A DNA stretch of 64,000 nucleotides from Halobacteriovorax marinus SJ (GCF_000210915.2 NC_016620.1:2356001-2420000); one strand, 5' to 3'. Shown: positions 10,241 through 22,608, counted from the first letter of the stretch. Notes: generated from the letters alone by a model not told the origin. Numbers and translations are program-made.

Positions 10241-10349
10241 AAAGACCTTCCTGAGTTAAGTATTATATAACAAAATCAAAAGCTTATGTCGTGTAATTCT
10301 TTTCATTTCCATTGTGTTTTCCCCCACTCTCTGCTACTTATTCCCCCTT

Positions 10350-12821
10350 ATGACAAAGAAACCAGAACTTCTACTTCCTGTTGGAAATATTGAGATGTGC
10401 AGGGCCGCCATTCACAATGGCGCCAATGCAATTTATGTAGGTATGCCTGAATTTAATGCTAGAGGTAGAACTACAGATCATAGCTTTGAACAATTAGAAG
10501 AAATTATTCAACTGTGTCACCTCTACGGGGTGAAAGTTCACGTGGCCTTTAATATCGTCATTTTCCAAGATGAACTTGCAAGAGCGATAGAGTTACTACA
10601 GAAGCTACTTCCCCTTGGCCCAGATGCACTAATAGTCCAAGATCTAGGTCTAGTAAGAGTTATAAAAGAGATGGCACCATGGCAGGAAATTCACGCCTCT
10701 ACTCAAATGACCATTACAAATGAGTTGGCCATTGAATTAACTAAAGACCTGCAAATTGAGCGCTACGTTCTAGGTAGAGAAAATAGTCTAAGTGAAATAA
10801 AAACGATTAAAGAGAATACTGATAAAGAAATAGAAGTCTTTGTTCATGGAGCTCTCTGTGTTGCCTATTCTGGACAGTGCTTTACTAGTGAAAGCATTGG
10901 AGGAAGAAGTGCAAATAGAGGTCAATGTGCCCAGAGCTGCCGTTTTGAATACGATCTCATTGTCGATGATAAGAAAGTTGATCTCATCGATCAAAAGTAC
11001 TTGGTCTCACCTCAAGATTTATGTGGAATTAACGAAATCGAATCACTTAAAGAACTTGGTGTAGACTCACTCAAAGTAGAAGGTAGACTTAAGAGTCCTA
11101 ACTTTGTTGCCAGTGTAGCAAGTAGCTATAGAAAGGCCATTGATAAATCTAAATTTACTAAAGAAGATATTGAACAAATGGCCATCAGCTATTCTAGAGG
11201 ATTTTTTCCAGGCTGGCTTCACGGAGTGAACCATCAGGAATTAGTTGATTCAACATTTGGTAGTAATCGTGGATTAAAAATTGGACAAGTTCAAGAAGTA
11301 AGGAAGAGCTCTATTGTCATTGCTTCCGATAAAGACTTAAGCAATGGAGATGGCCTACTCTTTGCCAGTACAAATCGTGAAAAGAAACTAGAACTTGGAT
11401 CTATGATCTACGATATAAAGTCTCTAAAGAATAGAAGATTTGAAATCTTCTTAGCGAAGGATTTTAAAACACAATCTGTTCAAGCAGGATTCAATGTCTA
11501 TCAAACCTCATCACCTTCACTCACTAAAGAATTAACAAAGTCATTTAATGATAGAGAAAAGCTTTTAAGAAGAGAGATATCTATCTCACTAGATGCGAAG
11601 GTGGGAGAAAAATTACAACTTACGGCCTCTATAGATAAACAAGAAGTAACTGTACAAAGTGAATCAGAACTTGAAGTCGCAAAGAATGATATTAACTTAG
11701 ATAATATTAGAAAAGAGCTATGCGCTCTTTCATCGACACCCTTTAAGTGTCAAACTCCAATCATTAATATATCTGAAAACTCTCCTTTTATCGCAAATAA
11801 AGTATTAAAAAATCTAAGACAAAGAGCAGTTAAAGAGTTGAGTGAAAAAATTCTCAAGCATGACTTGGGAGAAGTTCTCTCGGCAAAGCTACCAGATTTA
11901 AGTGAGTCATTTAATCAAAGAGAGAGTAAAATAAGGCCTCTCTTAAGAGAGTTAAGTCAACTTGAGGGGCTCATTCCTCTATTAAACTCTAATCCAAATA
12001 TCAAAAATAAGATTGAATTCATTATTCTAGATTATGAATTTGGAAAAGATTATAAAGAGTCATTAGAGCTACTAAAATCTGCAGGTATAGAGTCTGCTAT
12101 AGCAACAAATAGAATACTAAAACCAAATGAATACCACCATCTAAAAGTCTTAACGAGGCTAGCACCTGACTATGTCTTAGTGAGAAACTTAGGAGCACTA
12201 CAATTCTTCAAAGAGAATGCGAGCAATTTAAAACTCATCGGTGACTTTAGCCTAAACGTTACAAATTCAATCACAGCAGATTACCTCTACTCTAAAGGAC
12301 TAATGACTCTAACACCAAGTTACGACCTCAATAGAGATCAGTTACTGTCCATGGTTAAACATAGTCAAAGAAAGGACTTCGAAGTCACTATTCATCAATA
12401 CATGCCAAGTTTTCACATGGAGCATTGTGTTTATGCTGCCTTTCTCTCAAACGGTAAGTCTTTTAAAGATTGTGGGAAACCGTGCGAAAAACATAAAGTT
12501 GAGCTCCACGACAGCTTTGGAAATAAACACTTTATTAAAGCTGACTCGGAGTGCAGAAATACAATGTATAACGCCGTTGCGATTTCAGCGCCTACATTAC
12601 TTAAAGACTGTTTAGAAATAGGTGTCTCGCGCTTTAGGATTGAGGCTCTACATGAAGAGAGTTCTGTTATCTTTGATAAGCTTAAAACTTTTTGTAAATT
12701 ACTTGAGAATGAATTGTCTCCAAGTGAAGTTAACCTTCACTTAGGTCTCCATGAAAACTACGGCCTTTCTCAGGGACAAATTTTTAAAGAAGATACTTAT
12801 GTAGATAGAAAGAAGAGCTAG
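10350..12821 (+). CDS. U32-family protein, RlhA/TrhP-like RNA hydroxylation type (long form)
   Basis: From the ATG at 10350 the product is 823 residues. The N-terminal half is a U32 domain with HASTQMTITN, GALCVAYSGQC and NRGQCAQSC (cysteines about 170, 177, 193, 197), the likely iron-sulfur ligands of RlhA, TrhP and UbiU/V. The second half ends with MEHCVYAAFLSNGKS, CGKPCEKH and a CRNT segment, a further Cys-rich module. E. coli RlhA is about 650 residues, so this is a long form. U32 proteins of this group hydroxylate RNA bases or quinone precursors rather than acting as proteases; which applies here cannot be told. The GTG at 10314 is a less likely start. It overlaps the next gene tail to tail. 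Confidence 0.85.
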   Translation: MTKKPELLLPVGNIEMCRAAIHNGANAIYVGMPEFNARGRTTDHSFEQLEEIIQLCHLYGVKVHVAFNIVIFQDELARAIELLQKLLPLGPDALIVQDLGLVRVIKEMAPWQEIHASTQMTITNELAIELTKDLQIERYVLGRENSLSEIKTIKENTDKEIEVFVHGALCVAYSGQCFTSESIGGRSANRGQCAQSCRFEYDLIVDDKKVDLIDQKYLVSPQDLCGINEIESLKELGVDSLKVEGRLKSPNFVASVASSYRKAIDKSKFTKEDIEQMAISYSRGFFPGWLHGVNHQELVDSTFGSNRGLKIGQVQEVRKSSIVIASDKDLSNGDGLLFASTNREKKLELGSMIYDIKSLKNRRFEIFLAKDFKTQSVQAGFNVYQTSSPSLTKELTKSFNDREKLLRREISISLDAKVGEKLQLTASIDKQEVTVQSESELEVAKNDINLDNIRKELCALSSTPFKCQTPIINISENSPFIANKVLKNLRQRAVKELSEKILKHDLGEVLSAKLPDLSESFNQRESKIRPLLRELSQLEGLIPLLNSNPNIKNKIEFIILDYEFGKDYKESLELLKSAGIESAIATNRILKPNEYHHLKVLTRLAPDYVLVRNLGALQFFKENASNLKLIGDFSLNVTNSITADYLYSKGLMTLTPSYDLNRDQLLSMVKHSQRKDFEVTIHQYMPSFHMEHCVYAAFLSNGKSFKDCGKPCEKHKVELHDSFGNKHFIKADSECRNTMYNAVAISAPTLLKDCLEIGVSRFRIEALHEESSVIFDKLKTFCKLLENELSPSEVNLHLGLHENYGLSQGQIFKEDTYVDRKKS

Positions 12822-12833
12822 TTTAGCTCTTCT
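12811..12833. terminator. hairpin across convergent stop codons
   Basis: AGAAGAGCTA (12811-12820) and TAGCTCTTCT (12824-12833) form a perfect ten-base stem with a three-base loop. It contains the stop codons of both converging genes, which overlap by four bases. Likely a bidirectional terminator built inside coding sequence. Confidence 0.55.
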
Positions 12834-14833
12834 AATGCAGCATCCATATTCTCTATCGCTTCTTTCATCACTTCAACATCATTATTTTCAACAGCAATCT
12901 CAACCTCTTCAGCTTCTTCTTTTTGAACTTCTACCTCAGTTTGAACTTCTAACTCTACTTTCTTATCTAAGATTTCAAAAAATCCTGCACTTTCATTTCT
13001 TGTATAATACTCTTGTCTCTCACTTGAAAATAGATCGAGAAAAGAATTTGTTTCTAAAGATAATTGTATAAAGATGCTCTCTCCTGCTGACACAGTAAAG
13101 GACATAGGAGGAAGCACAAGTGAAAATTCCCCCTCACTACTATCTTCAAAGTAAATAGAGCTTCTACTAATTCCATAAGTCATATAGTGAGGAACTTCCC
13201 ATGCTCCCTCTTTTGAATAGAAGAGTGAAGCAACAAGTGAAGACTTAAAAAGGGAGCTCTTTGCTTTTAACTTTAATTTAAGTGGACCATTTACGACAAT
13301 TTTCTTATCTGTCGCTACGGTGAAATATGTCTCACCTTTTAACTGAGTTCCTCTTCGATTCGTTATCGGGCTCGTATCCATCTGTGGAACTTCTATGTTG
13401 ATCGAATTAAACATCTCATCAATTTTCGAAGTCGGTTGTGAATTAGAAGTTAGAGTTCGATACTCTTTCTTAAGCTTTGAAAACTCCAAGTTCATAAATT
13501 CATTACCAAAACTAGTTTCTAGGAAATCGCCACAACCGTGTCCACCATGGTGGATATAGAGATAATTATTTTCTGGATACCTACCTTCATCAACTAAGTA
13601 CTTATGGCCCAGAATAGTATCACGACCATCTTGATCATTATTAGTACCAGCAACATGGAAAATAGGAATATGACTCTCTTTTAACTCGTCCAGAATTGAG
13701 CGCTCTAACATATATTCATTTAAACTTCCTTTATCTCTGGCATTAATTAGATCTTGCCAATCAGCAATATCTCTTCCGTAGAGAATATTATCAAACTGAG
13801 AGTATGGAATACCTTGTTTGACAAGATAATTAATTTTCTCTGCAAAGAGATTAATATCTTTATGATTCTCTCTCTCTGCGACATAGGCCAAGAGAGAGGA
13901 CTCAACTGTTTCTGCGGCAGTGAAGGAATCTGTACTAGCATTTGCTGGTGCACTACAGGCAATTGTGTAAAGTAAGCCTTCTGCATTACTGGCAGCAGCA
14001 GCGAGAGCATTATATCCATCATAGGAAACGCCAAAAGAAAACACAGAACCATTTGAGAAGGTTTGATTTCGTATCCAATCGATAGTTTCTTTTGAGTCTT
14101 GAATATTTTTTTCGTGCAACCATTTAAAGTTTCCACTCGAAGCATGCGATCCTCTATTGGATTGAATGACTACATTGTGGCCTTGAGTAATAAAACCTGC
14201 AGCCTTAGTTAAATAATAACCGAAGCTTTCAGTATGTAGATATGGAGTTTTTATGAAACCGACTCTAGAGGCCTTATCATCTTTAGAAAATACTAATGAT
14301 GATATTCTCTCTCCATCACTCATCTTAACGTATCGATGATCAATATTCATATCATCACCTGATAGAAAGTAGTACTCTACAATTTTACCACTCTCATCAA
14401 CTCTAAAGAGTCCGTAGAGAGAGTGAGGGTTTGAGAGCTTAAACTTAATGATAAAAAGTGGGTTATAATCAAATACAATTTGTGTCGATTCGCATACATT
14501 TGAGAGTGAGAGTATATTCTTCATATACGCTTCAAATTGCTGAAACTTAACTTTCTTTGAGAAGTACGCATCAAAGAGAAATGGGTTATCATACGAGCTT
14601 GTTTGAATCATCTGACATAAGTCACGACTTAGGTTACTCACGTATTCACCAGATGATTTCTCTTCATTATTTAATTTAAATGCTGCTTGCTGATTAGCAC
14701 TCACCTGCTGGGCCTGTTGCATATTAAGGTATTCAATTTGAGAAATCTTTCTTGTGTATTCAAAGTCTTTTTCCTTCTTTGAACAAGAAACTAAAGTCAA
14801 AATCGATAAACAGAGTATAAGACTCTTCTTCAT
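12818..14833 (-). CDS. CocE/PepX-like alpha/beta-hydrolase lipoprotein
   Basis: A 671-residue lipoprotein with lipobox LVSC (Cys17). The alpha/beta-hydrolase core shows the nucleophile elbow GVSYDG (Ser270), an Asp region GTNNDQDGRD near 396-405, and His candidates in HHGGHG (428-433). The C-terminal beta-rich part resembles the jelly-roll of X-Pro dipeptidyl-peptidase and CocE esterases. The last 40 residues are a Glu/Val-rich acidic tail. Members cleave peptides or esters; the substrate here is unknown. Location should be the outer or inner membrane surface. The tail may be a coiled coil or simply disordered. Confidence 0.85.
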   Translation of the reverse strand: MKKSLILCLSILTLVSCSKKEKDFEYTRKISQIEYLNMQQAQQVSANQQAAFKLNNEEKSSGEYVSNLSRDLCQMIQTSSYDNPFLFDAYFSKKVKFQQFEAYMKNILSLSNVCESTQIVFDYNPLFIIKFKLSNPHSLYGLFRVDESGKIVEYYFLSGDDMNIDHRYVKMSDGERISSLVFSKDDKASRVGFIKTPYLHTESFGYYLTKAAGFITQGHNVVIQSNRGSHASSGNFKWLHEKNIQDSKETIDWIRNQTFSNGSVFSFGVSYDGYNALAAAASNAEGLLYTIACSAPANASTDSFTAAETVESSLLAYVAERENHKDINLFAEKINYLVKQGIPYSQFDNILYGRDIADWQDLINARDKGSLNEYMLERSILDELKESHIPIFHVAGTNNDQDGRDTILGHKYLVDEGRYPENNYLYIHHGGHGCGDFLETSFGNEFMNLEFSKLKKEYRTLTSNSQPTSKIDEMFNSINIEVPQMDTSPITNRRGTQLKGETYFTVATDKKIVVNGPLKLKLKAKSSLFKSSLVASLFYSKEGAWEVPHYMTYGISRSSIYFEDSSEGEFSLVLPPMSFTVSAGESIFIQLSLETNSFLDLFSSERQEYYTRNESAGFFEILDKKVELEVQTEVEVQKEEAEEVEIAVENNDVEVMKEAIENMDAALEELN

Positions 14834-15199: not shown

Positions 15200-15481
15200 A
15201 TGAAAGTAATTATAGCGATGGCCATTATTTTACCATTTCTAAGCCTCAATACGATGGCGGCGTCTTCTAGTGCCAGGGCCACCCTTTTAGTTACTGAACA
15301 GGTAAAGATCACTGTAATAGAAAATAAAGATTCTAAGAGGGTTATAACTAAAAATCGTATTCAAGTGATGCCTCATAGAATGCTTACAATTCAATACGGC
15401 AAAGATTCACAGACAATTTCTTCAGGGGAAAATGGAATCATCTCTAATGATAATAAGAAAAGTAGCGACATATTCTTTTAA
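15200..15481 (+). CDS. small secreted protein beside the pilus locus
   Basis: A 93-residue protein with a clear signal peptide (VIIAMAIILPFLSLNTMAA) and about 70 mature residues of basic, beta-rich sequence without cysteines. No family was recognised. It converges on the minor DUF4402 gene and overlaps it by four bases, so it is next to, but not in, the pilus operon. It could be an accessory periplasmic factor, but nothing in the sequence proves this. Confidence 0.65.
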   Translation: MKVIIAMAIILPFLSLNTMAASSSARATLLVTEQVKITVIENKDSKRVITKNRIQVMPHRMLTIQYGKDSQTISSGENGIISNDNKKSSDIFF

Positions 15482-15888
15482 TAAATCACATCAATAGTAA
15501 ATGAACCGGAATAAGCGCCAGGGGCTTTATTTACACCAATAGCGTTCAACGTAGCTCCGACTTTGACAGTTTGCTTACCTTTAGAGTTAAGTAAACCATT
15601 CGCTCCAGCAGCAGGTCTTGATTTAAAATTTCTGACCTTTATCTTTTGACTCCCGTTACCACCTAGATATATATAAGCTTCCGTAGGCAAGAGAATGGTG
15701 TAGGATGTATTCTTATCGCCTTTAACTAGGAATCTTGCATTATTCGGTTCACTACCCTTGGGAGAAATGACTTTCTTAGGGTCTCCTTGAACTAGAGTAC
15801 CAAAGTCGAGATCTCTCTTATTTGTAACAGAGATGGGTTTTGAATATACCGAAAAACAAAATAGAAATATCAATATTCTATAGATCAT
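15478..15888 (-). CDS. DUF4402 protein, likely minor pilin or tip subunit
   Basis: A 136-residue secreted protein: signal peptide (YRILIFLFCFSVYS), then one DUF4402 domain with RDLDFGTLVQGD, PAAGANGLL, TVKVGATLNA and a final GAYSGSFTIDVIY. The same blocks occur in the 165-residue protein at 19302-19799, so the two are paralogues. DUF4402 proteins are immunoglobulin-like subunits found beside chaperone-usher genes. This copy lacks the Ala-rich low-complexity features of the other and sits last in the operon, which suits a minor or tip subunit. Its ATG overlaps the usher TGA by four bases. Confidence 0.82.
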   Translation of the reverse strand: MIYRILIFLFCFSVYSKPISVTNKRDLDFGTLVQGDPKKVISPKGSEPNNARFLVKGDKNTSYTILLPTEAYIYLGGNGSQKIKVRNFKSRPAAGANGLLNSKGKQTVKVGATLNAIGVNKAPGAYSGSFTIDVIY

Positions 15889-18392
15889 ATTCTAACTCCT
15901 TCGAGAAAGAGGCTATCTCCTTCCTTTGGCATATTAAAAGTCTTTTCAAAGACACGACCATCACAATCATCACAAATAACTTTTAAAGTATACTTTCCAG
16001 GCTTAATTCCTCCTGAATAAAAGTATCCATCTTTATCAGCATGTATTCTCTTTAATATTTTTCCATTCGACACAAGATTAGCAGTAATCTTCTTTCTTTT
16101 ATTCCCATCGATGAAATCAATCTCTCCTTCTATATCACCCTCGATCTGTAGTGGAAACTCAACGCTCGCCGTTTTGCCTACCCTTCCCCAAACTCTCTTC
16201 CCTAAAGTCTTAGGCCTTAAATATATATTTTGTATATTTGTTAAACTTATTTTTATGTCGGTAGGACTAAAGGGCTGAACAAAACTAAAGAAGGCATAAC
16301 CTGTATGATTGGTGCTCTCTCTTTCATTTCCAGATAAGCGATAGAATTCTACATCTCGAATAAGCTCTTCATTATCATTTCTAATGCCATCACCATTTAA
16401 GTCATGAAAGGCAGATGCCTTTATATTTGAGTACTCTGTAGTTCTCTTATTATATAAATTGATTCCAGTGTCCTCATCATAAACAAGTCCATATGAGAGA
16501 TTAACTCCTGCTCCATAATCACCTTTATTCCCTACATCTAGACTTACCCCAGCAAAGAAGTTCCTAAATCTTCTATCAGCTCTAAATCTTAGATTAGTTG
16601 TACTTTGCTCATAGGCATAAACCAATGCAGATGAGTAACTATTCTTCTTTCTATTTGAGAATGTATAACTAAGCTCACTATCCCTCAGTCCTTCTTTTCC
16701 CCATCTATTTTTAAATTTAAATGAAGATTTACCAAAGTTATATCTAGTGAAGATTTCATTGGTAAAAATTGTATTTTCAACGCTCATAGAATTTGAAATA
16801 TAGAAATTTCGAATTGAAAGTGAGATGCGATTTAGAAAATCTGTATAGTTATCATCAATTCCAATTTTCTTCTTATAACTTATTCTATTAAATGTTTGTA
16901 AATTTTTAATAAATCTTAAAGGTAGTAAGAAGTTTGCATTCCACGAATAATCCACAGGGTTGGAATGACCTAGAATGCTAGATTTAACTCCACTATTATT
17001 GATATAGGACAAGTTTGTATTAACACCGAGAGTATTAAATTTAAGCGCTGTTTCTATGGCCCTATTCTCGCCATCATTGATATAATTTAGATCCAACAAA
17101 GTACTATTTAAAAATGTATTGAGCGATCCACCAAAATAATTAGTAGTAACTCCAGTTGTATATTCGTAGGATTTTACAGTATTGAGTTCAAACTGAACTC
17201 TCTTAAATAAGTTCTTTGAGAGACTTAAGCTATAATTCTCTTTATCATTCTCATCAAAACCATAAGCTCCTGCTACATTTACTAATTTGTCTGCTTCAAT
17301 AAATGCGTCAGTTATATTAAGATTTTTACTTTCATACCTTCTCTCACCTTTTGGTCCATAGAAGATAAATTTAAATCTATTCATGCCATAATACAGATCA
17401 ACACCATTAAACTCATAGCGCTGCTTCTCTGCTGTTCCAAGCTCCCTTGCGATGAGAATATCATTTTGATAGAGCTCAACTTCCCAGTCTTTTTCTAAAG
17501 GTCCGGAGAAATCTTCCTTTGTAAAATTTGATGCCTTATAAAGAGAGCGATTTGAGAAATAAATCCCTGTAAGTTTTTGTCCTCCTCCTACTAAGTTCGT
17601 AGTAGGAAGATTGAAGTTCACTACTTTAACTTCACTTAAACCAACATCACCAAATATTCTATTTCTATAATCATTTCTCTCAAGACTTAGCCAAAACGAC
17701 TCCTGCTTCCTATCTACTCCTCTATAATCAGTATAGAGCTCAGACTTTAGAAATTCTGCAGAAAGTGATGTCTCATGCCTTATGGCCCCTCTAGAATCTC
17801 CCGATTGAGATCTATAAATATCTCCCGAAATATCTTGATCAAAATTGAATCCATCAATCCAGTCTCGCTCATTTTTCTCTACCGGGAAGATCGCTCTACG
17901 CTTGGCCTTACCTATTTTTCTCTCACTCCTCTTCTCTTTTTCCTCTGGTGGAAATAGACTGTGATACTCTAGTGTCATTGAAGAGCTAAGTGAGTCGATT
18001 TTTATTTTAATATCTATTAATTTTTCAACTACGGGAGTACTAAGCAGAAGGTAGTCCTCTAGAGGGATAAAGTCATTACACTCAAACTTTTCTTTTCTAT
18101 TTTTTAAATAAAGAACGCATTCATTTAGATCAATTTTGTAAACATTACTTTTTTTAAAAATGAATCCCTGAATTACTCTCTCATTCTTATTGTACTTATA
18201 ATTTGCACCAATAGAATCAAATAAATCCTCCAGCGGAATATACCACTTATTGGATTTACTATATGTAATAAGACCTTCATCCAAGATAAAATTACTTTTA
18301 GACTTAATGAGCATAATTCTTTCATAGTTATACCACTCTTCACTAGCGTGAGTTTGCATAATTGAGAATATGATCAATAAGAATAGTTTCAC
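15885..18392 (-). CDS. non-canonical outer-membrane usher-like protein
   Basis: An 835-residue secreted protein. After a signal peptide, residues 20-140 contain a beta-rich module with WYIPLEDLFDSIGA and FIPLEDYLLL, recalling copper-amine-oxidase-like N-terminal modules. The middle 450 residues alternate short amphipathic strands with YGMNRFKFIFYGPKGE, as in fimbrial usher barrels. AFHDLNGDGIRNDNEE near 670 begins an SdrD-B-like Ig fold, and the last 80 residues form another carboxypeptidase-regulatory-like Ig fold (GYFYSGGIKPGKYTLKV). Such plug and C-terminal Ig folds are usual in ushers. Ushers form the pore through which chaperone-bound subunits polymerise. The GTG start lies two bases after the chaperone stop, so translation is coupled. 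Confidence 0.78.
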   Translation of the reverse strand: MKLFLLIIFSIMQTHASEEWYNYERIMLIKSKSNFILDEGLITYSKSNKWYIPLEDLFDSIGANYKYNKNERVIQGFIFKKSNVYKIDLNECVLYLKNRKEKFECNDFIPLEDYLLLSTPVVEKLIDIKIKIDSLSSSMTLEYHSLFPPEEKEKRSERKIGKAKRRAIFPVEKNERDWIDGFNFDQDISGDIYRSQSGDSRGAIRHETSLSAEFLKSELYTDYRGVDRKQESFWLSLERNDYRNRIFGDVGLSEVKVVNFNLPTTNLVGGGQKLTGIYFSNRSLYKASNFTKEDFSGPLEKDWEVELYQNDILIARELGTAEKQRYEFNGVDLYYGMNRFKFIFYGPKGERRYESKNLNITDAFIEADKLVNVAGAYGFDENDKENYSLSLSKNLFKRVQFELNTVKSYEYTTGVTTNYFGGSLNTFLNSTLLDLNYINDGENRAIETALKFNTLGVNTNLSYINNSGVKSSILGHSNPVDYSWNANFLLPLRFIKNLQTFNRISYKKKIGIDDNYTDFLNRISLSIRNFYISNSMSVENTIFTNEIFTRYNFGKSSFKFKNRWGKEGLRDSELSYTFSNRKKNSYSSALVYAYEQSTTNLRFRADRRFRNFFAGVSLDVGNKGDYGAGVNLSYGLVYDEDTGINLYNKRTTEYSNIKASAFHDLNGDGIRNDNEELIRDVEFYRLSGNERESTNHTGYAFFSFVQPFSPTDIKISLTNIQNIYLRPKTLGKRVWGRVGKTASVEFPLQIEGDIEGEIDFIDGNKRKKITANLVSNGKILKRIHADKDGYFYSGGIKPGKYTLKVICDDCDGRVFEKTFNMPKEGDSLFLEGVRI

Positions 18393-18394
18393 TT

Positions 18395-19174
18395 TCAGAG
18401 TTTAAAGCTATCTTTTGCTACAGGTTGTTTGGCAAATTCATTTTCGTAGAATCGTATTTCATAGACTCCACTCCTCTCCTTAAAATCTTCCATTTTAAAA
18501 GTGAATCGTCTCTCTGGAATATATGAACTGACTCCATTTACAATGGCGACCATCTCTTCTTTTTTATCGCCAACTCTAAAGACTTTAAAAGTTCCAAAGG
18601 GAAAGATTGCTCCCTCTTTTTTCATAACGACATTAAAGTAATTTCCATCTTTATTTTTAGAGATTGAAAAATTCTTTAAATCAACTTTTCCATCAACATT
18701 TCCATGGGTATAAATAATTGGAACATTGATCGCAATTCTTGCATCAATCTTCATCATAACTAGATTGTCTCTCCCACTACCGCTCTCATCTTCTTTCTTG
18801 ATAGGTTCAAATCTAATGTGGGCCCTATAATCTCCCGTGGAGAGACTCGCAGTCTTTCTAACCATAAAGCGCACTACTTGCTCGTCATTTGGCGCTAAAG
18901 TAATCCTACGAGGAGAGAACCTTAAGAATTCAATAATCGAGTGCCCACTTGACCCCGGATCTTCAACCTTCATCATTTGCCCATCAAATGATTGTTTGTA
19001 ATAAACTGCGCTCAATTTATAGGTTGTTTTAAAAGTGGATTTATTTCGAATTGTTACAGTTGCAACCTTTGTTCTAGTCGATAATTTAATCTTTGTTGGA
19101 AACACCTGTAGACTAGCTCGGGAATGCATAGAGAGCAGAAATAATCCGGTTAGCCATAAAAATCTTAACTTCAT
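18395..19174 (-). CDS. periplasmic pilus-assembly chaperone
   Basis: About 259 residues with a signal peptide (LRFLWLTGLFLLSMHSRA). The N-terminal domain has the PapD-like pattern LQVFPTKIKLS, VTIRNKS, FLRFSPRRITLAPNDEQVVRF and GDYRAHIRFEPI; a second beta domain follows. The basic SPRR region is where PapD-type chaperones hold the subunit C-terminus. The role is to cap DUF4402 subunits by donor-strand complementation and bring them to the usher. The ATG at 19174 was chosen because GGAG lies six bases upstream; the GTG four codons earlier lacks a site. It precedes the usher and follows the major subunit across a terminator. Confidence 0.85.
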   Translation of the reverse strand: MKLRFLWLTGLFLLSMHSRASLQVFPTKIKLSTRTKVATVTIRNKSTFKTTYKLSAVYYKQSFDGQMMKVEDPGSSGHSIIEFLRFSPRRITLAPNDEQVVRFMVRKTASLSTGDYRAHIRFEPIKKEDESGSGRDNLVMMKIDARIAINVPIIYTHGNVDGKVDLKNFSISKNKDGNYFNVVMKKEGAIFPFGTFKVFRVGDKKEEMVAIVNGVSSYIPERRFTFKMEDFKERSGVYEIRFYENEFAKQPVAKDSFKL

Positions 19175-19242
19175 TAACTTCTCCACTTTTTCAAGTACTT
19201 ACACATGATTATCCGTAAAAATTGGCTCAAATGTAAGGGGGA

Positions 19243-19272
19243 AATAAAAAACCCCTCACTAGTAGTGAGGGG
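19243..19272 (-). terminator. intrinsic terminator after the major pilin gene
   Basis: CCCCTCACTA (19252-19261) and TAGTGAGGGG (19263-19272) form a perfect ten-base inverted repeat. On the minus strand a T-run (19251 downward) follows directly. It lies between the major subunit gene and the chaperone gene of the same strand. Partial read-through would give abundant subunit message and little chaperone-usher message. Confidence 0.8.
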
Positions 19273-19301
19273 CATAAATAACTTCTATTTTTCTGTAAAT
19301 C

Positions 19302-19799
19302 TTAGTAAACAACGTCTACTGTGAAGTTTGCAGAGTAGTTACCTGCAACTTGAGTTGCACTAAGAGCGTCTCTTGTTGCACCTACATTTAGTGTCTGTGC
19401 CCCAGAACCGTCTAGAAGTCCATTGGCCCCTGCCGCTGGAGTAGAAACAAATGAATTTACTCCAATTTGCTCATCCGCTGTAGCACCTGCACCAGTAATC
19501 ATAGTAACAGTAGCATCGGCCGGAAGAGTGATTGTATAAGCTGTATTGGCCTGTCCTGTTACAGCAAACTCAGCAGCTGTACCATCACCAGGAGCCACTG
19601 TTGAAGCTGCATCACCTTGTACAGATGAACCAAAATCTAGGTCAGAGACCTGAGCAATATTAATGGCCGCTGTTACTACAGCAAGAGCTTGAGCTGTGTC
19701 TGAAGCGGCCTTAGTCACGTCTACTGACATAAGTCCAATAGTTGATAATCCTAGAACACAAGCTGCTGTAGAAAATTTCTTCATCGTCTTTTTCATCAT
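19302..19799 (-). CDS. DUF4402 protein, likely major pilin subunit
   Basis: A 165-residue secreted protein: signal peptide ending near KAASDTAQA, then a DUF4402 domain with SDLDFGSSVQGD, YTITLPADATV, TPAAGANGLLDGSG, LNVGATRDAL and a final GNYSANFTVDVVY. The mature part is rich in Ala, Thr and Gly, as major fimbrial subunits are. The alternating hydrophobic C-terminal strand fits donor-strand exchange. GGGGG just before the ATG is a strong ribosome-binding site. A terminator downstream and a stable leader hairpin upstream suggest high expression. Role as the shaft subunit is inferred from context and composition. Confidence 0.87.
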   Translation of the reverse strand: MMKKTMKKFSTAACVLGLSTIGLMSVDVTKAASDTAQALAVVTAAINIAQVSDLDFGSSVQGDAASTVAPGDGTAAEFAVTGQANTAYTITLPADATVTMITGAGATADEQIGVNSFVSTPAAGANGLLDGSGAQTLNVGATRDALSATQVAGNYSANFTVDVVY

Positions 19800-19818
19800 T
19801 CCCCCTAATTTAGAATGG

Positions 19819-19864
19819 TTAATTTTCTTAATTTCGATACAACTCTATCGGTTAAGAAAATTAA
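19819..19864 (-). promoter_or_regulatory. leader stem-loop and sigma-28-like promoter of the major pilin gene
   Basis: TTAATTTTCTTAA (19819-19831) is repeated inverted as TTAAGAAAATTAA (19852-19864); CGATA/TATCG inside can extend the stem. On the minus strand the segment ACCGATAG lies 11 bases after TCAAGAGT, which resembles the flagellar sigma-28 pattern TAAAGTTT-N11-GCCGATAA (5/8 and 6/8 matches). If this is the promoter, transcription would start within the repeat, so the hairpin would be an operator rather than a full RNA leader. If transcription starts upstream, it becomes an mRNA-stabilising leader. The two readings exclude each other. Confidence 0.4.
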
Positions 19865-19957: not shown

Positions 19958-20374
19958 CTAGCTGGCCTTGGAACAAACATAGAGAGTGAGCTGTTTCATG
20001 GTCGTTTTACTATATGGTTTATTGATGAAGAGAATTTTATCAGTTGGTCCAAAGATCTCTAAATAGTCCTCCCAACTATATTGTTGAAAGGCCGTGCAAA
20101 CGATAAATTCAGTCTGAGGATACTCTTCTCTAATATGTTTAATAGTTTGAATACCATCCATACCAGGGGGCATTCTAATATCCATTATGACAAGAGAGTA
20201 TGGCTCTTTATTGCGATAAGATTCCCTCACCTTCAACACACCAACTTCACCTTGAAAGCAGTGATCAAGTTTAAATTGCATTCCAAAATTTTTTGCGTTC
20301 ATGGTTTCAATGATCTTCTTGTAGAGTTCATGCATTTCTTCAGAATCATCTACCATTAAAATTCTATGTTCCAT
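19958..20374 (-). CDS. single-domain response regulator
   Basis: A 138-residue receiver domain without output module. Asp pair at 9-10 in MVDDSEE, predicted phospho-acceptor Asp65 in LVIMDIRMPPGMDG, Thr in VCTAFQQYSW and Lys in FINKPYS. The PPGMDG loop is one residue longer than usual. It lies 158 bases upstream of the major pilin gene on the same strand, so a link to pilus control is possible but unproven. No kinase is adjacent. Confidence 0.93.
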   Translation of the reverse strand: MEHRILMVDDSEEMHELYKKIIETMNAKNFGMQFKLDHCFQGEVGVLKVRESYRNKEPYSLVIMDIRMPPGMDGIQTIKHIREEYPQTEFIVCTAFQQYSWEDYLEIFGPTDKILFINKPYSKTTMKQLTLYVCSKAS

Positions 20375-20451: not shown

Positions 20452-21300
20452 ATGATAAAGATCGCCATTTTAACTTGTAATGAAATAGATCCTCTCGCCT
20501 GTAACGATGATCATCAAATTATTCCTTACTTACAAGACCAAGGAATTGAGGCAGTTGTTAAGGTTTGGAATAGCCCCAATGAAAATTGGCAAGATTTCGA
20601 CTTTCTCATTATTCGATCAACATGGGATTACTGTGAAAATATCAGTGAATTTAATAAATTCATTAAGAGTGATGAAATAAAGAATAAGATTTTTAACTCT
20701 CCAGATATTGTTTTAAATAATTATAATAAGTCCTATCTCTTAGAATTAGAGAAAAACCATTTTGAAATTATTCCAACGACAATTTCCCCTCTAGATGAGA
20801 GTGTGATCAAGAGTTCATTTGAAAAGTTTAATACGACGAAGCTAATTGCCAAGCCATTAGTTGGCGCAGGAGCCTCAGGAATTACCGTACTCGAAGAAGG
20901 AAGTTTATCTATTCCTAAATCTGAGCAAGAAATGATGATTCAACCCTTTCAAGAGAGTATTGTAAGTGATGGTGAAGTCTCACTTATTTTCTTTAACTCT
21001 AGATTTTCTCATGGAATTTTAAAGCTTCCTAAGGAAGGAGACTTTCGTTCTCAAGAGGAATTCGGGTCCAAGATAGTAAGTTTCACTCCCGATAAAGAAC
21101 TTGAAGACTATGCTAGAGAAGCACTACTCTCTATGACTAAGGAGAGCCTTTATGCAAGAGTTGATCTCTTAAAAAATAGTGAAGGACACTGGCGATTAAT
21201 TGGTGAAATAGAACTTATAGAACCGGCCCTATACTTAAGTTTTGACCAACAATCTCCAGAGAGATTTGCCAAAGCTATCTCCAAGAGAGTTAAAGGGTAA
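20452..21300 (+). CDS. RimK/glutathione-synthetase-type ATP-grasp protein
   Basis: A 282-residue protein. The N-terminal Rossmann-like part contains DFLIIRSTWDYCEN, a motif seen in ATP-grasp proteins of the glutathione synthetase/RimK and cycloserine-ligase (DcsG) type. LIAKPLVGAGASGITVL forms the glycine-rich ATP-binding strand and LYARVDLLKNSEGHWRLIGEIELIEPALY the metal-binding end. It probably ligates an amino acid or small amine to a carboxylate; the substrate is unknown. AGGA lies eight bases before the ATG. It overlaps the NlpC/P60-like gene tail to tail by 11 bases. Confidence 0.85.
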   Translation: MIKIAILTCNEIDPLACNDDHQIIPYLQDQGIEAVVKVWNSPNENWQDFDFLIIRSTWDYCENISEFNKFIKSDEIKNKIFNSPDIVLNNYNKSYLLELEKNHFEIIPTTISPLDESVIKSSFEKFNTTKLIAKPLVGAGASGITVLEEGSLSIPKSEQEMMIQPFQESIVSDGEVSLIFFNSRFSHGILKLPKEGDFRSQEEFGSKIVSFTPDKELEDYAREALLSMTKESLYARVDLLKNSEGHWRLIGEIELIEPALYLSFDQQSPERFAKAISKRVKG

Positions 21301-21838
21301 TAGCAATTATTTGAGTGCGCTTGATTTTGTCGATCTTATCGCTCCAGCGCACTCCTTGAATTTCATCATTAGAATTTACCTGCAAGAAAATATCCCCCTC
21401 GCCAACTCCACTTTGCTCCCTAGTATCACAAGCATGAGGAGTCTTTGTGCAATCAAATACTCTCACTCTTCGAAGACTCTTCTTTGTACTCATTTCAAGA
21501 TCAATGACTATCGCCATATGACCAGTGTCACCACTTTTTGGAACACTATCTTTTCTCCAGCAAAGAATATCTCCCACTTCAAGCTTGGAGTAATGACTTT
21601 TGAATTCAAAGTGATTCCTTACATAATCGTAGAACTCATAACTTTTAAAATACTTCGCCTCACCAACGATATCTTTATATAACTTTGGTCTTTCAATTGA
21701 GAGTAGTGACGAGAAGAAAGATGCGCAGTCGCAATGGTAGTCACCAGAGTAGGAATAAAATAGACCACCTCTTTTAAATGAAGTGGTCTTAAGACTAGTT
21801 TTAATTTTAAATATAGAATCTAAAAGAGAATGGATCAT
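21290..21838 (-). CDS. NlpC/P60-like cysteine hydrolase
   Basis: A 182-residue protein with the papain-like layout of NlpC/P60 and CHAP amidases: DCASFFSSLL carries the probable catalytic Cys, EVGDILCWRK forms the following strand, and TGHMAIVIDL carries the His. These enzymes usually cleave peptidoglycan stem peptides or other amides. No signal peptide is seen, so a cytoplasmic role such as recycling or toxin-like action is possible. The start codon touches the stop of the nitroreductase gene (one shared base), so both are probably translated from one message. Confidence 0.75.
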   Translation of the reverse strand: MIHSLLDSIFKIKTSLKTTSFKRGGLFYSYSGDYHCDCASFFSSLLSIERPKLYKDIVGEAKYFKSYEFYDYVRNHFEFKSHYSKLEVGDILCWRKDSVPKSGDTGHMAIVIDLEMSTKKSLRRVRVFDCTKTPHACDTREQSGVGEGDIFLQVNSNDEIQGVRWSDKIDKIKRTQIIAITL

Positions 21839-22608
21839 TATTCTAAAATTTTAATAAACTTCTTTCTATCAAAACGAATTTGCTCTCCATAAATTCCTTT
21901 CTCTGATCTCTTTCCTATACTGATAACCATCACAAAGTGAGCACCACTTCCTAGATGTAGTAGATCCTTAATTCGCTTAGAATCTGCTCCCTCCATTGGA
22001 CAAGAGTCATACCCTAGGGCCCTAGCGGCCAACATAATATTTTCACAGGCCAGAGCTGTAGACTTTGAGGCCCAAGTAATCATCTGAGCATTTGAAACAG
22101 GCTCTCTTGGAACAACCTTCTTAAGTCCCGTAATAAAAACAGCAAGTCTTTTAATAAGCCCAAAGAGACCAAAAGGACCTTGCGAATAAGCTAGTGGAAC
22201 TAATTTCTCGTAATAATTCTTAGCGGCATCTGGGACACCTTCAGCGCTATTGAAAATCTCTAACATTTGCTTAGCATTCTCTCTCCATGTATCTGTTCGA
22301 GCAATACACACAATGAGCTCAGGCGCTGTAGCAGCAGCAGGTTGAGAAAGGCAGGCCGAAACGAGTTCTTTTTTCTTCGTTTCATTCTTTACCCAGTAAA
22401 ACTCCCAAGGTTGAAGATTTGAAGAGTTTGGTGCAAGAAGAGCAGCATCTAAAATTTTTTGCATATCTTCTTCTTTAACTGGATCATCTTTAAAGACGCG
22501 CACACTTCTTCTGCTTCTTAAAACTTTAAAGAATTCTTCGCTAATTATCTCTTGGGCCTCTTCTCTGTAGCCTGTATCCTTTACCTCTGAAAATATATCA
22601 TTTCCCAT
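21838..22608 (-). CDS. nitroreductase-family flavoprotein
   Basis: A 256-residue FMN-dependent oxidoreductase. The N-terminal RSRRSVRVFKDDPV and LLAPNSSNLQPWEFYWV bind FMN phosphate and are family hallmarks; AARALGYDSCPMEG and GAHFVMVISIGKRSEKG complete the fold. Such enzymes reduce nitroaromatics, quinones or enones with NAD(P)H. Substrate is unknown. AGGA precedes the ATG. It forms a two-gene unit with the downstream NlpC/P60-like gene. Confidence 0.93.
   Translation of the reverse strand: MGNDIFSEVKDTGYREEAQEIISEEFFKVLRSRRSVRVFKDDPVKEEDMQKILDAALLAPNSSNLQPWEFYWVKNETKKKELVSACLSQPAAATAPELIVCIARTDTWRENAKQMLEIFNSAEGVPDAAKNYYEKLVPLAYSQGPFGLFGLIKRLAVFITGLKKVVPREPVSNAQMITWASKSTALACENIMLAARALGYDSCPMEGADSKRIKDLLHLGSGAHFVMVISIGKRSEKGIYGEQIRFDRKKFIKILE

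Follow-up and report, generated by a model that had tools for sequence, protein, structure and literature searches.

A probable chaperone-usher pilus of an unrecognised, deep-branching type, built from DUF4402 subunits, in Halobacteriovorax marinus SJ

INTRODUCTION

Classical chaperone-usher (CU) systems, such as FimD/FimC/FimA and PapC/PapD, combine an outer membrane usher – a 24-strand barrel with a plug and periplasmic domains at its ends – with a PapD-like chaperone and pilins carrying an N-terminal donor strand, and bear a two-domain lectin adhesin at the tip. Donor strands supply the strand that is missing from the neighbouring subunit (PMC4654587). In E. coli the pilus is ended by PapH and FimI, which donate a strand and accept none, and hold the pilus in the membrane; both are full-size pilins with an immunoglobulin (Ig) fold that lacks the P5 pocket (PMC10673952). 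Here we analyse a 64,000-nt stretch of DNA from Halobacteriovorax marinus SJ (NC_016620.1:2356001-2420000; ‘the window’, with positions counted from its first letter) and describe a locus, at positions 15200–19864, which very probably encodes a CU pilus of an unrecognised, deep-branching type. The genome amounts to 3.44 Mb in two contigs, the second of which (1973 bases) has no match among plasmid records.

The locus resembles the classical systems in the kinds of genes it holds, in its PapD-like chaperone, in pilins with an N-terminal donor strand and in the architecture of its usher. It differs from them in that its usher is only about 11% identical to classical ushers in structure alignment and falls on a separate branch, and in that it has DUF4402 pilins and a single-domain tip subunit. 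Among the archaic pili (Csu, CupE), the fold of CsuA/B is the closest to that of the window pilin, and archaic-type and DUF4402 loci of the phylum both carry a gene for a very small secreted protein that we refer to as a mini-pilin. EcpC, an alternative or ECP-type usher, gives a weak but collinear, full-length profile match to the window usher family. No paper naming DUF4402 or PF14352, and none describing such ushers, was found in the open-licence literature.

RESULTS

Four genes on the minus strand make up the body of the locus: a major, putative shaft pilin of 165 residues (19302–19799), a periplasmic chaperone of 263 residues (18395–19186), an usher of 835 residues (15885–18392) and a minor, putative tip pilin of 136 residues (15478–15888). 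The mini-pilin gene (93 residues, 15200–15481, plus strand) is convergent with them and overlaps the minor pilin gene by 4 nt, stop to stop. All five open reading frames (ORFs) listed in a preliminary description of the window, the small secreted one included, were recovered at their positions, and alignment of the two subunits bore out the motifs it had noted in both (LDFG, PAAGANGLL and G-x-Y-x-x-x-F-T-(I/V)-D-V-(I/V)-Y). Gene order, tight packing with overlaps and the 4-nt convergent stop overlap are kept in four other genomes of three genera, and the arrangement in the window is therefore not due to chance.

As judged by its AlphaFold model (pLDDT 87.6), the 835-residue protein is an usher of ordinary layout, with an N-terminal domain (residues about 23–150), a barrel (about 173–650) and C-terminal domains (about 655–835). 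The barrel has 24 strands between residues 179 and 639, by our own count from the DSSP line, and a small domain at residues about 303–360 (WEVELYQND...FIFYGPKGE; 17313–17486, minus strand) is inserted between strands 6 and 7, just where FimD and PapC have their plug. The plug is the most conserved stretch of the usher family, with invariant columns in the alignments. Barrel, plug and the putative periplasmic domains at both ends are the features that place the protein in the CU superfamily. In Foldseek searches the top 18 matches to the model were all FimD or PapC (best E 4.4e-27), and most rows after these were Ig-domain proteins and unrelated barrels with E values no better than 6e-10; VIA-align gave Z 20.6 against the FimD pore (root-mean-square deviation 4.5, 375 residues aligned) as compared to Z about 15 against unrelated porins. 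The usher-like barrel proposed in the preliminary description is thus seen in the structure model.

At the sequence level the kinship emerges only when profile is compared with profile. Single-sequence searches with the window usher returned no NCBIfam and no PF00577 match; it does not reach the curated cut-off of the Pfam Usher family PF00577, which only one of 21 relatives matches (E 0.004). PDB sequence searches with the single window proteins found nothing, and those with usher and pilin profiles yielded domain-level or weak matches only. A profile of 73 usher relatives, however, aligned with a profile of 30 PF00577-type ushers over 781 columns (probability 99.8%, E 1.4e-27), the reversed-profile control giving a probability of 6% and E 0.006; hhalign of the usher profile against single FimD or single EcpC was not significant.

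The preliminary description had also called the usher non-standard, on account of a copper-amine-oxidase-like N-terminus and SdrD_B-like and regulatory folds at the C-terminus. This did not hold: the Pfam matches are below the cut-offs (Cu_amine_oxidN1, E 0.004; SdrD_B and regulatory, E 0.0004) and lie within the ordinary layout, the former inside the N-terminal periplasmic domain of the model and the SdrD_B and CarboxypepD_reg matches in the C-terminal domains, where 16/21 and 15/21 relatives, respectively, have them as well. A copper-amine-oxidase function was rejected, the match being sub-threshold and seen in only 2/21 relatives. Two cysteine pairs were observed in the usher: C92/C105, which lies in the N-terminal domain and hardly varies across the 21-row alignment, and a C-x-x-C near the C-terminus (residues 807/810), kept in the five closest ushers.

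Both subunits belong to Pfam family DUF4402 above the gathering score (major, E 2.8e-13; minor, E 2.5e-20), and they are the only two DUF4402 genes of the genome. The structure check proposed beforehand returned a donor-strand-type subunit: the model of the major subunit (pLDDT 87.9, core about 97) has a CU pilin fold, with CU pilins or pilin domains making up 48 of the 50 best Foldseek rows – albeit at modest single E values, the best being 0.003 – and with the Csu pilin CsuA/B ranking first in VIA (Z 8.7, root-mean-square deviation 2.9, 110 residues aligned). Aligned with relatives, the minor subunit starts at the first core strand directly after the signal peptide, whereas the major subunit has an extra stretch, SDTAQALAVVTAAINI (residues 33–48; 19656–19703, minus strand), that is present in shaft-type subunits and missing from the minor one. 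Over 218 aligned matches this stretch shows a strict alternation: hydrophobic residues make up 86–93% of columns 29, 31 and 33 but only 11–20% of columns 28, 30 and 32. Gly or Ala occupies column 27, and both residues are frequent in the pattern. We read the stretch as a donor strand on these grounds. The fold matches and the donor-strand pattern together suggest an incomplete-Ig pilin with an N-terminal donor strand.

The start of the profile match is bimodal among 208 DUF4402 subunits (148 start within columns 1–16, 60 from column 21 onwards). In 52 of 68 loci with at least two subunits the short class is represented exactly once; it is missing from 15 and occurs more than once in one. The subunits thus appear to split into a class with a donor strand, to which the window major belongs and which would form the shaft, and a class without, to which the minor belongs. 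Since a donor strand fills the missing strand of a neighbour, a subunit that has none could stand only at the distal tip. Beside the usher, some loci have two-domain DUF4402 proteins of about 280–330 residues (L047 6514-7422, L049 670-1524, L085, L088, L098, L111), possibly two-domain tip adhesins.

The chaperone of the window matches PapD_N at E 0.022 only, but 45 of its 64 relatives match this family (best E 4.3e-9), several match NCBIfam fimbrial-chaperone models (best E 9e-6), and hhalign aligned the chaperone with FimC over nearly its full length (P 0.0012). Sequence comparison therefore assigns it to the PapD-like two-domain periplasmic chaperones, as had been predicted. Its profile also matches a solved Gram-positive WxL-interacting protein, EfmWxLIP1, over nearly the full length (E 6e-4). 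A link between Gram-positive WxL clusters and the chaperones of CU systems is possible; donor strands and chaperones are not mentioned in one paper on WxL-interacting proteins. Between the major pilin and chaperone genes lies a G+C-rich hairpin (19273–19251, minus strand; 10-bp stem, 3-nt loop) followed by a T-run, a candidate partial terminator, and hairpins of unlike sequence occupy the same intergenic place in six relatives. We infer that the hairpin likely raises the amount of shaft protein above that of the other products.

The ushers associated with DUF4402 subunits likely, though not provenly, form a lineage of their own. In a tree of 70 usher sequences, one branch with a Shimodaira–Hasegawa-like approximate likelihood ratio test (SH-aLRT) support of 100 separated the 37 of DUF4402 type from the 33 of PF00577 type, which comprised FimD, HtrE, YehB, ElfC, EcpC and archaic-type Bdellovibrionota ushers; several named clades were absent from this sample and the branches are long. 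The usher falls outside the branch with the archaic-type Bdellovibrionota ushers, and its pilins are DUF4402 proteins, which places the locus outside the archaic (spore coat U) group. The tree, together with the fact that neither Pfam nor NCBIfam names the usher, lends support to the earlier suggestion of a distinct pilus type.

Usher relatives were present in 7/129 genomes of the order and in 25/291 sampled genomes of the phylum. A scan of 84,980 species genomes with patterns from an 8-row usher alignment returned 232; a 21-row alignment was too diverse for patterns, and a genome scan with a single usher found no relatives. Among the named relatives in the large scan, a Bacteriovoracaceae metagenome-assembled genome comes closest, with an usher 61% identical to that of the window. 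We read 79 independently fetched usher loci, which belong to Bdellovibrionota, Gamma- and Alphaproteobacteria, Acidobacteriota, Desulfobacterota, Nitrospinota and Zixibacteria. At 61 of them both chaperone and DUF4402 genes are present, and many of the others are short contigs; the association of these genes recurs widely, where its absence elsewhere would have spoken against the preliminary description. Copies of the usher are also found on plasmids, conjugative ones included. In the plasmid records checked the usher is named ‘carboxypeptidase-like regulatory domain-containing protein’ or ‘hypothetical protein’, and its neighbours are annotated ‘molecular chaperone’ and ‘DUF4402’.

Of all parts of the locus, the small convergent protein is the most novel. 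It recurs, always with the identical 4-nt stop overlap, at each of the five complete loci, which are those of the window and of its four closest relatives and represent three genera. The mature protein has only about 73 residues, with no match to DUF4402 beyond the N-terminus. A profile of the five members had 17 matches outside its own family among 3615 ORFs. DUF4402 subunits account for 12 of these (hypergeometric p 2e-12), while the profile matched only one of 179 usher and chaperone ORFs, which are secreted as well (Fisher p 0.002). The inspected matches fall at the N-terminus of the subunits, covering the signal peptide and the donor strand; in the window mini-pilin, which has a signal peptide as well, residues 21–37 (15260–15310, plus strand) are the donor-strand-like part. 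The similarity is significant for the group and weak for single proteins. The mini-pilin thus appears to consist of a signal peptide and a donor strand, without a pilin core.

Ordinary CU loci of the phylum have comparable genes. A small secreted gene of 70–128 residues is present in 28 of 32 PF00577 loci, mostly among the CU genes, and one of these is in the same genome: a second, ordinary CU locus (G000:C1:1571900-1574600; L064, L192 2820-8297) has an usher that is the sole PF00577 match of the genome (E 3.5e-12), a PapD_N chaperone, two subunits and a tip protein of about 300 residues, with a mini-pilin gene (L192 3343-3630) between the two pilin genes. Ordinary loci of this kind differ from that of the window in their PF00577 ushers, their pilins and the tip protein of about 300 residues, and also in the N-terminal motif of the mini-pilins, which is L-x-L-x-G-x-V, as in the pilins encoded with them, and A-x-A-x-V in the window kind. 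A donor-strand score above 0 was obtained for 22/28 ordinary-locus mini-pilins as compared to 0.7% of 2593 small control ORFs, and the matrix of the own locus type scored better for 26/28 ordinary-locus and 4/6 DUF4402-type mini-pilins. At the C-terminus, the last six residues are similar to those of pilins (mean BLOSUM score 6.7 versus −4.9, standard deviation 5.0, for control ORFs).

By analogy with PapH and FimI, we tentatively propose that the mini-pilin may end and anchor the CU pili of Bdellovibrionota as a terminator pared down to a donor strand and a C-terminal strand like that of pilins, with hardly anything else. It would be kept across two pilus types, with a donor strand matching that of the pilin type it accompanies. 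Like PapH and FimI, it would supply the final subunit of the shaft with a strand and take none: with a donor strand but no groove, the mini-pilin would stop the pilus as PapH and FimI do, with far less. The full pilin Ig fold with a closed P5 pocket that characterises those two proteins was not found in the mini-pilin, which lacks the Ig core. Other observations weigh against this proposal. Two of the six DUF4402-type mini-pilins fail to score with the donor-strand matrix, and the donor-strand score of the ordinary-locus ones is partly circular, as these had been selected visually among the small secreted ORFs of the loci; a locus-specific match of the mini-pilin C-terminus with its own pilin was rejected (p 0.70).

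It is also quite possible, though less likely than not, that the small protein has nothing to do with pilus assembly and is instead an independent secreted protein, or what is left of a decaying pilin, whose resemblance to donor strands reflects Ala/Ser-rich low complexity. It is short and fast-evolving (23–37% identity), its single matches are weak (best E 1e-4), and mini-pilin genes were sought and not found in DUF4402 loci outside the relatives of the window. Its conserved position argues the other way, namely the stop overlap shared by five complete loci, as do the presence of such genes at most ordinary CU loci and their better fit to the donor strand of their own subunit type. Its distribution points in both directions: across the 129 genomes of the family the mini-pilin profile matched in seven others, five of which carry a DUF4402 locus (one split over contigs, with the copy at a contig end), another having its copy beside an ordinary usher and the last (L190) away from any CU gene. 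Further alternatives to a terminator are a regulator, a decoy for chaperone or usher, and a remnant. In several Bdellovibrionota loci (L043, L045, L050, L054 and others) one DUF4402 subunit is encoded on the strand opposite the usher; the one in L045 (126-614) is what the mini-pilin profile matches best outside its own family, and is a possible ancestor of the mini-pilin.

The pilus locus is flanked by genes for a single-domain response regulator, an S15 peptidase-like protein and others (19958–20374 and 12818–14833, minus strand; 10314–12821, plus strand; 20452–22608). They are kept beside the pilus locus in two relatives of the same genus (L058, L059), but its surroundings in the two other genera (L060, L061) did not reveal them.

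DISCUSSION

The folds of usher and pilins, the chaperone family, the linkage of the genes and the presence or absence of donor strands were computed directly, and from them we infer how the locus may work. Both DUF4402 subunits would be exported by Sec with an Ig fold one strand short, whereupon the PapD-like chaperone would lend a strand and bring them to the usher. The minor subunit, having no donor strand of its own, would go first and become the tip, after which donor-strand exchange through the N-terminal SDTAQALAVVTAAINI strand would link major subunits into the shaft. Many transcripts would stop at the hairpin after the major gene, leaving the shaft protein in excess. Finally, the mini-pilin might cap or anchor the base of the finished pilus much as PapH and FimI do in E. 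coli, a step of which we are much less certain than of filament formation, tip-to-shaft order and attenuation.

Three results count against a CU pilus that works in this way. The VIA matches leave the N-terminal domain of the usher uncovered; the WxL-interacting protein is the best PDB match of the chaperone profile, PapD following at E 0.75; and 15 of the 68 multi-subunit loci have no subunit that lacks a donor strand.

The locus could instead belong to a merely divergent member of a named CU clade, for example the alternative/alpha or the ECP-like one, which we consider unlikely. The limited sampling of named clades in our tree leaves room for this, and a lower P value was obtained for EcpC (0.0015) than for FimD (0.12) when a smaller alignment was used. 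EcpC nevertheless groups with the PF00577-type ushers, on a long branch and across the fully supported split from all 37 DUF4402-type ushers. The alpha-type families PF16967 and PF15976 (TcfC, CooC_C) were absent among the families matched at E 0.01 by the 21 usher members, PF00577 being matched by the one member mentioned above, and DUF4402 subunits likewise count against membership of a named clade. That the products would form a short non-pilus surface coat, or that the locus would merely secrete DUF4402 proteins, is improbable: while the filament is predicted here from genes and models, and the pilin profile also weakly matches the capsule-like F1 antigen over its full length (E 0.33), F1 is itself a donor-strand-exchange polymer, complexes of this kind are among the structure matches, and the fold matches of the pilin spread over rod-forming pilins.

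With an unrecognised, deep-branching CU pilus as the preferred interpretation, it seems that annotation pipelines have overlooked a large branch of the best-known pathway by which bacteria assemble adhesive fibres, one that spans marine Gammaproteobacteria, Sphingomonadales, Acidobacteriota, Desulfobacterota and Bdellovibrionota. The DUF4402 family, so far of unknown function, gains a likely role, and the mini-pilin provides a small system in which to ask how pilus growth stops and how the membrane retains the pilus. Should the host prey on other bacteria, as is suggested by its relatives, the pili would be candidates for attachment to the prey before entry.

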